Source: a virus. From it: DNA of 27,790 nucleotides. The notes beneath the pieces were generated by a model. It searched no databases. It had not been told where the DNA came from and worked only from the letters and a program-made list of their open reading frames with translations. The stretch covers positions 1-27,790 of IMG/VR virus record IMGVR_UViG_3300025096_000096; one strand, given 5' to 3'. A program made the position numbers and the translations under genes. Below, in pieces: positions 15,108 through 23,486 of this stretch (the first letter of the stretch is position 1; each line of letters starts with the position of its first letter).

Positions 15108-15134
15108 ATTAAGGCGAATGAATCGCCCATTAAT
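15108..15134 (-). other. Leader hairpin related to the ATTAATGGG / TTCGCC element
   Basis: ATTAATGGGCGA pairs with TCGCCTTAAT around a short loop, just upstream of the SD of the 86-aa gene. The same two arms occur in swapped order in the leaders at 16638-16682 and 21860-21907. Confidence 0.5.
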
Positions 15135-16324: not shown

Positions 16325-16381
16325 ACCAATAGCCAATCTTGCGATTGGCTTTCATAGCATCTCAGCTAATCATCAGTTGGT
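16325..16381 (-). ncRNA. Hammerhead ribozyme, type I, overlapping the upstream stop codon
   Basis: Minus-strand reading: stem I strand ACCAA (16381-16377), CUGAUGA (16376-16370), stem II UAGC/GCUA in the 16-base block 16369-16354, GAAA (16353-16350), stem III GCCAAUC with a GCAA tetraloop and GAUUGGC (16349-16332), U (16331), A17 (16330), then UUGGU (16329-16325) pairing back to ACCAA. All core bases fit the hammerhead consensus, with H17 being A rather than the more frequent C. The stop codon of the 82-aa gene (TAG, 16368-16366) lies in stem II, so the core is also read as codons for Thr-Asp-Asp. The predicted cut is between 16330 and 16329. Confidence 0.88.
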
Positions 16382-16637: not shown

Positions 16638-16682
16638 GGGATAATTCCCATTAATAACACCAAATGATGCTATTAAGGCGAA
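16638..16682 (-). promoter_or_regulatory. Leader element B (UUCGCC...AUUAAUGGG)
   Basis: Minus strand: UUCGCC-UUAAUA, a 14-base loop, UAUUAA... wait-free arms UUAAUA (16656-16651 partner 16676-16671), then UGGGAAUUAUCCC and the SD. The outer pairing CC/GG continues the stem. A near-identical element with a different but still pairing stem is at 21860-21907. Confidence 0.55.
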
Positions 16683-16729
16683 TCTCACAAAAAATGGCTT
16701 CACCATTGCTCGTCTAATGCAAAGTTAGA

Positions 16730-19384: not shown

Positions 19385-19408
19385 AGTAAAAGTTAATTAA
19401 CTGATTCA

Positions 19409-19461
19409 TAATCCTTTCGAGTAACTCATCAGGCATGACTACTAATGTCATACGAGGATTA
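19409..19461 (-). ncRNA. Hammerhead ribozyme, type III
   Basis: Minus strand: UAAUCC (19461-19456), U (19455), C17 (19454), stem I GUAUGAC and GUCAUGC with a 7-base loop (19453-19433), CUGAUGA (19432-19426), short stem II GUUACUC (19425-19419), GAAA (19418-19415), GGAUUA (19414-19409) pairing to UAAUCC. All core bases fit; stem II is minimal (one G-C pair clearly). The predicted cut between 19454 and 19453 leaves most of the ribozyme in the leader of the 329-aa gene, 84 bases before its ATG. Confidence 0.85.
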
Positions 19462-19537
19462 CACAATGGCGAATAAGGTATAGGAGAATCAAAAAAGACC
19501 CTTATCCCCTGATAAAAATCAGGTAGTGCCATTGTGT
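19461..19537 (-). ncRNA. Three-way-junction RNA presenting an anti-Shine-Dalgarno
   Basis: A perfect 10-bp outer stem (ACACAATGGC at 19461-19470 with GCCATTGTGT at 19528-19537) encloses two hairpins: CCTGAT-loop-ATCAGG (19508-19523) and an ATAAGG/CCTTAT hairpin (19473-19505). The large loop of the latter carries ATTCTCCTATA, complementary to the SD of the next gene. It lies directly upstream of the hammerhead at 19409-19461. Confidence 0.6.
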
Positions 19538-20679: not shown

Positions 20680-20763
20680 TGCTGATTTCGATTCTTTTGA
20701 ATCAACCTGTAAACAGGTTCTGCTTTCGCAGTCATCAGTAGGAATTACATTCCTAGATCAGCA
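20680..20763 (-). ncRNA. Hammerhead ribozyme, type III, with stem II replaced by three hairpins
   Basis: Minus strand: stem III strand UGCUGAU (20763-20757), C17 (20756), stem I UAGGAAU-GUA-AUUCCUA (20755-20739), CUGAUGA (20738-20732), an insert of three back-to-back hairpins (CUGC-GAAA-GCAG; AACCUG with CAGGUU; GAUUC-AAAA-GAAUC; 20731-20690), GAAA (20689-20686), UCAGCA (20685-20680) closing stem III. Core bases, stem I and stem III match the consensus; the part between CUGAUGA and GAAA is unusual since no simple stem II exists. The predicted cut is between 20756 and 20755, 108 bases before the MoxR ATG. Confidence 0.75.
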
Positions 20764-21314: not shown

Positions 21315-21372
21315 ATCAAGACCCAACCTTTCGATTGGGTTTCGCCTGAGTTTCACAGGCTCATCAGTTGAT
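21315..21372 (-). ncRNA. Hammerhead ribozyme, type I, canonical
   Basis: Minus strand: stem I strand AUCAA (21372-21368), CUGAUGA (21367-21361), stem II GCCUG-loop-CAGGC (21360-21344), GAAA (21343-21340), stem III CCCAAUC with a GAAA tetraloop and GGUUGGG (21339-21322), U (21321), C17 (21320), UUGAU (21319-21315) pairing to AUCAA. All conserved core bases are present. The predicted cut between 21320 and 21319 is 29 bases before the ATG at 21290. It starts one base after the stop of the upstream gene. Confidence 0.93.
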
Positions 21373-21837: not shown

Positions 21838-21859
21838 AATTTTTCTCCTATTATGAATT

Positions 21860-21907
21860 GGGTTAATTCCCATTAATCACACTCGTTATGAATATGATTA
21901 AGGCGAA
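21860..21907 (-). promoter_or_regulatory. Leader element A (UUCGCC...AUUAAUGGG)
   Basis: Minus strand: UUCGCC then UUAAUCA pairing with UGAUUAA across 15 bases, then UGGGAAUUAACCC and the SD of the first operon gene. Compared with element B, the paired bases differ on both sides while pairing is kept (UUAAUCA/UGAUUAA versus UUAAUA/UAUUAA), and the flanks are nearly identical. Confidence 0.55.
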
Positions 21908-21919
21908 CTAAACTGTATT

Positions 21920-21950
21920 GCGAGAGCGAGGGGAGAAACCCCACTCTCGC
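21920..21950 (-). other. Strong GC-rich hairpin in the operon leader
   Basis: GCGAGAG and CTCTCGC with inner GGGG/CCCC form a stable stem; it has no T-tract on either strand. It divides the long leader from the element next to the first gene. Confidence 0.65.
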
Positions 21951-22377
21951 CAGTTATAAATAAATTCTTTGGACTATTCATATAGACCACGCTGATGCTC
22001 ATTACGATTTTCATCTTGGCTTACATCTATGAAGTATTTGATCAACCATTCCTAACTTAATCAGATTGATATCTTGCATAAATGAACCCCCTTTAGAGAC
22101 TCACACTTTAGGATTCCCATCCCTTGCTGTTGGCATTTGTTTCAGCCCTAGATTTAAATTGATAGTAGCGACAAATCTACAAACTCGCTTTCTCCTCTCT
22201 GCCATGTGGTTATCAGCCTGAATCGAACCACACTCCAAATTGGTCTAACATTTCTATCTGCTAGAGGACTTTCACTTCGTTGGTGTTTCAACCTTTAGGA
22301 CTCGTCCTTATCATCCTTCTGATCAGACGTTAGGTGTCTAGGAATTGACTTAAACCTAACCGATATCAAGTAAGTAA
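21951..22377 (-). ncRNA. Gene-free ~420-nt leader, probable structured RNA
   Basis: No ORF with a ribosome site is seen. Perfect inverted pairs are frequent: GTTAGGT/ACCTAAC (22329-22335, 22354-22360), AGGAC/GTCCT (22297-22308), TGTGGTT/AACCACA (22205-22232), GTTG/CAAC near 22280. A T-loop-like GGTTCGATTC occurs on the minus strand (22229-22220). It lies directly after a promoter, so it should be transcribed toward the operon. It may be a stand-alone RNA or a long regulatory leader; it fits no tRNA. Confidence 0.5.
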
Positions 22378-22405
22378 ATTATATCAAATGGGTATATTCA
22401 TACAA
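22378..22405 (-). promoter_or_regulatory. Sigma70-type promoter of the long operon
   Basis: Minus strand TTGTAT (22405-22400), a 16-bp spacer and a perfect TATAAT (22383-22378). The spacing matches the other two promoters found here. The start near 22371 would give a ~530-base leader before the first ATG at 21837. Confidence 0.65.
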
Positions 22406-22468: not shown

Positions 22469-22530
22469 TATTAGGACTGCACAGAGGTATCATTTTGTAA
22501 TCTTGATCGGGGGGTGATGAGCATCATATA

Positions 22531-22547
22531 ATCAGTCTATGACTGAT
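22531..22547 (+). promoter_or_regulatory. Hairpin at the small terminase start codon
   Basis: ATCAGTC-TAT-GACTGAT is a 7-bp stem whose loop and first stem base hold the ATG (22539-22541). No Shine-Dalgarno is evident upstream; another small stem (TGATG/CATCA, 22515-22526) precedes it. Confidence 0.55.
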
Positions 22548-23006: not shown

Positions 23007-23246
23007 CTAGAATCCCATCCGCATATCTGCGCACCAAAGACCTACCCCAAAGACTAACTAATATCCCATATACACCCCTACCCTACACCCCCCCCTAGAG
23101 CTATTGATTGTAGCAGAACACCACCGAACAGTAATTCACTCACTAGATTCCCAATTTTTATGACCCCCCCCTTCTTCTTTTCTTTGATCTACCATTCTGG
23201 TATCATTTACCTTTATTTATCAGGAATTAGCTCAAGGAATCCTAGT
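23007..23246 (+). other. Intergenic region with C-rich stretch and candidate operator
   Basis: No gene is seen. Runs of C occur near 23071-23096 and 23163-23170. TACCA-TTC-TGGTA (23190-23202) is a perfect inverted repeat just upstream of the LexA-like gene and may be its operator. Confidence 0.45.
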
Positions 23247-23486
23247 GTGGAAAAAAATTTAACAAAAAAACAGGCGGATTTACTGGAGTTTGTGGAGGAT
23301 TACTGGCTTGAACGCTACTGTGCGCCTACATACAAGGAAATTGCGGAGAATTTGGGTGTAAAAAGCGTGGGATGGGTGCATTCCTTAGTGGATGAGCTTG
23401 TTTCTAAGGGCATTTTACTAAAAAAGGGGCATCGAACCATCCGCCCCGCTCATCTGACGCAGAAACTCCTTGACAAGAAACTGTGA
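23247..23486 (+). CDS. LexA-like winged-helix DNA-binding protein
   Basis: 79 aa from the GTG at 23247 (AAGGA eight bases upstream); a frame upstream to 23160 is hydrophobic and probably not translated. MEKNLTKKQADLLEFVEDYWLERYCAPTYKEIAENLGVKSVGWVHSLVDELVSKGILLKKGHRTIRP is the LexA N-terminal winged helix; there is no peptidase domain, so it would not self-cleave. A lone DNA-binding domain suits a phage repressor or regulator of the packaging genes. Inverted TACCA/TGGTA sites lie on both sides of the gene. Confidence 0.88.
   Translation: MEKNLTKKQADLLEFVEDYWLERYCAPTYKEIAENLGVKSVGWVHSLVDELVSKGILLKKGHRTIRPAHLTQKLLDKKL

Follow-up and report, generated by a model that had tools for sequence, protein, structure and literature searches.

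A probable stand-alone large structured RNA of uncultured tailed phages, followed in four lineages by a hammerhead

The region between a small terminase gene and a leftward operon in a 27.8-kb virus record, the whole of which was analysed and is referred to here as the window, carries a conserved and covarying structure shared by eight uncultured phage lineages (nine contigs and the window, with the window, L005 and L015 taken as one lineage). The reading we consider somewhat better than even is that this is a large structured non-coding RNA of an uncultured tailed phage, which stands alone, becomes separated from the messenger behind it and acts in trans. A sigma-70-like promoter of its own, placed where the leftward operon begins, would drive leftward transcription of the RNA, divergently from the small terminase gene. 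The fold would comprise a 5' domain that a long-range helix closes, a pseudoknot in the centre whose core is very conserved, and a 3' double hairpin. An element right behind the last helix would then part the RNA from the following messenger, a hammerhead in four lineages or, in the window and the others, a covarying hairpin that recurs, and the freed RNA would work in trans in a structural or protein-binding capacity. Few large structured RNAs have been described from phages. A smaller RNA of this kind with a 3' ribozyme in several lineages is a defined molecule to make and test, and the alternation of that ribozyme with another junction motif gives a hint of the way in which phages divide long transcripts into usable RNAs.

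Locus, promoter and distribution

The features of the locus are as follows.

From 22539, plus strand: small terminase gene (PF03592), rightward
23160-23486: LexA-type protein gene
22378..22405, minus strand: RNA promoter TTGTAT-16-TATAAT, read directly
21911..22372, minus strand: large structured non-coding RNA, from conservation in eight lineages and covariation
ATG at about 21837, minus strand: gp96-like gene (PF23790) with a Shine-Dalgarno sequence upstream, heading the leftward operon

The rightward genes that follow the small terminase encode a protein with a LexA-type DNA-binding domain, then the large terminase and the portal protein. Among named relatives, the large terminase is closest to the one from Pelagibacter phage HTVC027P (55% identity); the leftward operon also encodes an ATPase, a DUF2201 protein, an exonuclease and a Sak-type annealing protein. 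The start of the RNA is placed by inference near 22372 and 21911 is the end of the conserved structure, giving a length of ~460-500 bases in the window, and lengths of ~460-670 nt are found across the lineages.

An initial annotation of the sequence had described a TTGTAT-16-TATAAT promoter pointing into about 530 bases without a gene, and both parts of this description hold. The promoter lies on the minus strand at 22405-22378 and is aimed toward the gp96-like gene, from which ~534 bases separate it, and no ORF of at least 60 aa starts within 21874-22372. In the six further lineages where the contig is long enough, inspection by eye finds a -10 element of TATAAT, TATACT or TATATT and a -35 element of NTGTAT, except in L007 where it is TTGCAA. 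On the other strand TTGATC-18-TATAAT at 22503-22532 stops six bases short of the small terminase ATG, and given this spacing the small terminase mRNA may be leaderless. A palindrome like AATATTGAC..GTCAATATT occurs in ten copies in the window, several of them intergenic (3872, 5929, 8432, 11203, 12999, 14353, 15290, 18270, 20771 and 22452), and is a possible operator, perhaps for the LexA-type protein of 23160-23486.

When the 665-base intergenic region was compared against 89 loci, L015 and L005 were 99% identical to the window across its whole length, L008 was 79% identical, and partial matches were found in L006, L007, L032, L021, L009 and L031. Profiles of the two most conserved blocks recover every lineage among 210 loci, with no other locus scoring better than E 0.29, and a covariance model built on the 3' domain, R1, recovers the same ten records from 91 sources (13 rows, 59-109 bits). 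The next R1 matches stand at 22.8 bits (E 0.036; L016, L017 and L019), with others at 13-15 bits (L020, L022 and L023), and all six have been set aside as probable chance. The RNA is present in all seven large-terminase loci that have a small terminase at least 62% identical and more than 600 bases before it (L014, L015, L019, L021, L027, L031 and L032), and R1 matches none of 22 loci with a distant small terminase (<50%), several of which are cut short, nor the distant terminase relatives HTVC027P, HTVC023P, 023Pt_psg01 and DSL-LC04.

Wider searches of the viral collection with four patterns returned known contigs or chance matches only. Among the 29 new pattern loci any profile score at all was confined to L110, L113, L121, L124 and L125 (E at least 0.29), and the last four were rejected as relatives, being coding sequence. 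Six matches in the genome collection are limited to ~30 patterned bases, with E of 0.005-0.26 for the small set scanned, and named phages and plasmids gave short chance matches only. Among the ten records, L021 and L031 show little conservation of the 5' domain, a point against the preferred reading, and in L006, L007 and L009 the middle and 3' domains are separated by a variable insertion of >100 bases.

Fold and covariation

The elements of the fold, all on the minus strand of the window, are listed from the 5' end of the RNA.

22362..22369: 5' arm of the long-range helix P1, UUGAUAUC, pairing with 22066-22073 in the energy fold
22329..22360: 5' domain hairpin GUUAGGU...ACCUAAC with inner GUC/GAC, four pairs altered on both sides
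22245..22264: 5' domain hairpin CUAGC...GUUAG, two pairs altered on both sides
22206..22231: 5' domain hairpin GUGGUU...AACCAC, with a paired change in L005
22149..22189: pseudoknot, an AGCGA/UCGCU stem whose loop UAGAUUU pairs with downstream AAAUCUA
22087..22148: most conserved stretch, comprising GCUGAAACAAAUGCCAACAGC, a GNRA-type hairpin and UAAA..UG..AGUCUCUAAAGGGGG
22111-22122: the GNRA-type hairpin itself, GGAU-GGGA-AUCC
22066..22073: 3' arm of P1, GAUAUCAA
21911..21988: 3' domain, from covariation and model R1

The inverted pairs that had been picked out from the sequence of the window, GTTAGGT/ACCTAAC, GTGGTT/AACCAC, TAGATTT/AAATCTA, GCGAGAG/CTCTCGC and TTAATCATATTC/GAGTGTGATTAA, are all borne out, and the conserved helices to which the initial annotation had looked as a check on its proposal are present in the relatives, the covariation score being matched by none of 500 shuffles in each of the three domain alignments. 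The 3' domain consists of a hairpin GGUCUAU/AUAGUCC and a long hairpin AACUG-GCGAGAG...CUCUCGC-AAUA-CAGUU; 90.4% of its 166 cells are paired and six pairs are altered on both sides (8 rows, 7 distinct), and when the partners are slid by 1-3 columns the pairing falls to 40-56%. In the middle domain 87.9% of 149 cells are paired and four pairs are altered on both sides (8 rows). Both stems of the pseudoknot are altered on both sides among the relatives, one of these middle-domain changes turning UAGAUUU/AAAUCUA into UAUAUUU/AAAUAUA in L008, and the GNRA-type hairpin compensates in L032, where GGAU-GGGA-AUCC becomes GGAC-GGGA-GUCC.

The 5' domain has 85.6% of 132 cells paired and nine pairs altered on both sides (7 rows), a count matched by 54 of 500 shuffles, with further pair types matched by 125 of 500; for the hairpin at 22206-22231 just 64-71% of cells are paired on this alignment. 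The P1 arm duplex is predicted in five lineages and is weak in L032 and L007. Sliding the partners approximately halves the pairing overall, a control that favours the drawn structures since these were drawn by the analyst from the same sequences. RNAalifold, run on the same alignments, recovers the 3' domain, and in the 5' domain it recovers the second hairpin together with a further helix and misses the first and third hairpins. MAFFT misplaces the long 3' hairpin of L031 and L032 in alignment A2, so that pairing is undercounted there, and A3 does not truly align L021 and L031 over their first part; the near-identical L005 and L015 were excluded from A2 and A3 and retained in A4, from which L009, L021 and L031 were excluded.

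The cleanest single fact for pairing comes from L005, which differs from the window inside the RNA by three substitutions only, at 22228, 22209 and 22050, the first two of which (G to A and C to T) convert one G-C pair to A-U. The same change bears on a T-loop-like sequence that had been remarked upon in this region: GGTTCGATTC does occur, forming the 5' arm and loop of the GUGGUU/AACCAC hairpin, and a T-arm or tRNA-like reading was dropped, since ARAGORN finds no tRNA in the 27.8 kb of the window and L005 alters these letters to GATTCGATTC with the hairpin preserved by the paired change.

One-base indels among relatives fall within the conserved blocks and exclude a shared reading frame; such indels also interrupt the small ORFs of the 3' half, which were rejected accordingly. 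The folding energy of the window RNA gives a z of -2.42 for the minus strand and of -0.19 for the plus strand. The eight sense RNAs taken from eight records have z between -0.65 and -2.26 and the antisense reaches as low as -2.78, equalling or bettering the sense in three of the eight (L006, L032 and L031). Folding energy alone is therefore weak support, a modest excess over shuffles that is not always strand-specific, and it is the comparative evidence which exceeds chance. The modest z would suit a conserved DNA element with incidental hairpins, for example a packaging or replication site by the small terminase, as would the fact that the region adjoins the small terminase gene in every contig that reaches that far; nonetheless such an element would not account for pairs changed on both sides, those of the pseudoknot included, nor for the conservation of the promoter and the association with a ribozyme, both on the strand of the RNA, and we regard it as most improbable.

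The genes behind the RNA and its 3' end

The first gene after the RNA is of six unrelated kinds, none of which are joined by blastp at E 1e-3: in the window, G002 and G003 it is gp96-like, G001 and G006 encode a 64-aa protein at this place, and G004, G005, G008 and G009 have four further proteins, whilst in G007 no start was located by the gene-start script. In each of the nine records where a start was located, the ATG follows the last helix at 71-85 bases and the next gene has a good ribosome site. The position of the RNA, directly upstream of a well-equipped gene, is what would be expected of a cis-regulatory leader such as a riboswitch or attenuator, yet the six unrelated kinds of next gene speak against it, as does the hammerhead or long hairpin that lies between the RNA and the gene, and a leader would seem very unlikely. 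The initial annotation had left the choice between a large phage non-coding RNA and a regulatory leader; the conserved covarying helices support that proposal as a whole, and as the downstream gene differs among lineages a stand-alone RNA is the better supported of the two. Judged from the sequences, it is most likely that the RNA stands alone rather than serving as the leader of one gene, being kept despite the exchange of genes behind it.

Directly behind the last helix there is a hammerhead in four of the eight lineages (L021, L009, L031 and L032), in each case of type III with the order stem III, N-U-C, stem I hairpin, CUGAAYGA, stem II and GAAA. The stems, the GAAA and the NUC all fit; the seven-base CUGANGA core does not occur behind the RNA, where the letters are CUGAAUGA or CUGAACGA with an extra A after A6, and this A6a insertion is seen in six copies in four records. 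An insertion after A6 is reported to reduce hammerhead activity (PMC3088659), which weighs against the preferred reading. Stem III of both L031 and L032 has ACUGUC as its 5' arm, and this takes in the 3' arm of the final RNA helix (GACAG/CUGUC), so that the predicted cut would coincide with the end of that helix and the two pairings would be mutually exclusive. In all four lineages the hammerhead could release the RNA.

No terminator or hammerhead ends the RNA of the window, a further point against the preferred reading; there, as in its nearest kin, the hammerhead slot is filled by another element.

21860..21909, minus strand: 3' junction module, AGUUCGCC, a 12-bp hairpin and UGGGAAUUAACCC, 12 copies aligned

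The consensus of this module is UUC[GC]CC, a ~12-bp hairpin and UGGGAAUUA[AU]CCC, and over the 12 copies 96.5% of 201 cells are paired, with 23 cells altered on both sides. It recurs ahead of the ribosome sites of other genes, for example in the window at 16638-16684 (minus strand), and is found also in L230 and L235, contigs with a distant small terminase; the collection scan returned 12 contigs, of which six were already known, two were L230 and L235, and four (L231-L234) are apparent chance. The copy at 16638-16684 reads UUCGCC...UGGGAAUUAUCCC, and a possibly permuted form with the same letters stands at 15109-15133 (minus strand). A doubtful extension of these observations is that this is a new class of large phage RNA with its 3' end set by exchangeable cutting modules, either hammerheads or, in the lineage of the window, an undescribed cleavage motif UUC[GC]CC...UGGGAAUUA[AU]CCC, and if so the module in the junction slot might itself be a novel ribozyme or else the site of a dedicated nuclease.

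The strongest rival is an RNA acting in cis at the head of an early operon, for instance a processive antiterminator that loads on RNA polymerase in the manner of HK022 put, because such an RNA would likewise be retained irrespective of the following gene. The put RNA is ~70 nt long and likewise promoter-proximal at the head of an early operon, a likeness of position only, as the window RNA is far larger and has another fold. HK022 put acts on polymerase without a protein (PMC9378689). An antiterminator would agree with a promoter-proximal RNA that has different genes behind it, and by eye there are terminator-like U-rich hairpins between the genes downstream; on the other side, at ~460-670 nt and with a pseudoknotted core the RNA is far above put, and a hammerhead behind it would sever it from the nascent transcript. 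The size, the pseudoknot and the cutting element present in four lineages favour release over a cis antiterminator, which we consider unlikely, and the stand-alone RNA acting in trans is retained as the preferred reading.

Comparison with known RNAs and other hammerheads of the operon

The RNA matches no family in Rfam 15 and is in this sense a new variant among large phage RNAs. The comparison with GOLLD and ROOL that had been suggested for it gave no match to an Rfam model at E up to 10 for the window and up to 5 for the loci of seven relatives. Other Rfam matches were to hammerheads elsewhere and to eukaryotic families below their gathering scores, the best near the promoter being mir-383 (E 0.0039), which covers a TTGAC..GTCAA palindrome outside the RNA and was discarded; group I intron, RNase P, tmRNA, 6S, pistol, hatchet and twister had been dropped by eye, and cmscan agrees. 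GOLLD and ROOL often lie near tRNA islands and form a homo-oligomeric cage. The window RNA resembles them as a large, ornate phage-encoded RNA with a pseudoknot, and its covariation-supported helices place it with them in kind, which is not proof of a shared family; it differs in being smaller, in having another sequence and in having no tRNA nearby in the 27.8 kb seen. By likeness to GOLLD and ROOL (PMC12286853), a structural or protein-binding role in trans may be suggested.

The RAGATH RNAs were discovered through their association with hammerhead and twister ribozymes, and the present RNA resembles them as a structured RNA beside hammerheads, although no RAGATH family is among the cmscan matches. 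None of the open-access papers found, judged by title and the opening of the abstract, seems to deal with this RNA.

Hammerheads are also found further along the leftward operon, including the following.

21315..21372, minus strand: canonical type I hammerhead after the gp96-like gene, in the same direction
16325-16381, minus strand: second type I hammerhead, after a leftward-operon gene

The first reads AUCAA CUGAUGA GCCUG...CAGGC GAAA CCCAAUC...GGUUGGG UC|UUGAU, with the CUGANGA and GAAA core, NUH before the cut and three stems, all of which covary with the copy in L005; its descriptor score is 18. In Rfam it falls below the gathering score (20.6 bits against 48.5, Hammerhead_3, with a shifted span), and there is no Hammerhead_1 match in the window. 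Across six leftward operons (101,584 bases) the descriptor scan found 22 distinct sense hammerheads with a score of at least 14, up to seven per operon, and on the antisense strand none with a score of at least 12; the total is 27 after adding the window, G007 and G009. A shuffled control of 1.79 Mb, with dinucleotides approximately kept, gave four with a score of at least 14 and none of at least 16. Rfam scores for some of the operon hammerheads are 20.6-38.1 bits, below the same gathering score, and because comparably weak matches occur in 8 of 14 control genomes the hammerheads are called from descriptor score, strand bias and position.

Hammerheads flanking single genes in prophage operons are already known (Perreault et al. 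2011, PMC3088659), and the tandem hammerheads of prophages are alike in that several flank single genes of one phage operon, and unlike the present case, in which one closes a large non-coding RNA in four lineages.

Several further elements of the operon were noted, the first two by eye. At 19407-19463 (minus strand) there is a type III hammerhead whose stem II is roughly one pair long, and at 20681-20762 (minus strand) a hammerhead-like element has three successive hairpins in place of stem II, its stem III pairing via letters that differ from those of G002. A hairpin at 19462-19536 (minus strand), whose outer stem differs on both sides in G008, sits immediately before a hammerhead and a AUAGGAGA-type site and has within its loop UCUCCUAU, complementary to the AUAGGAGA ribosome sites of the phage. 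Finally, ~400 gene-free bases in the reverse complement of L228 (6207-6602; G008) are flanked by two hammerheads and are perhaps a second non-coding RNA.
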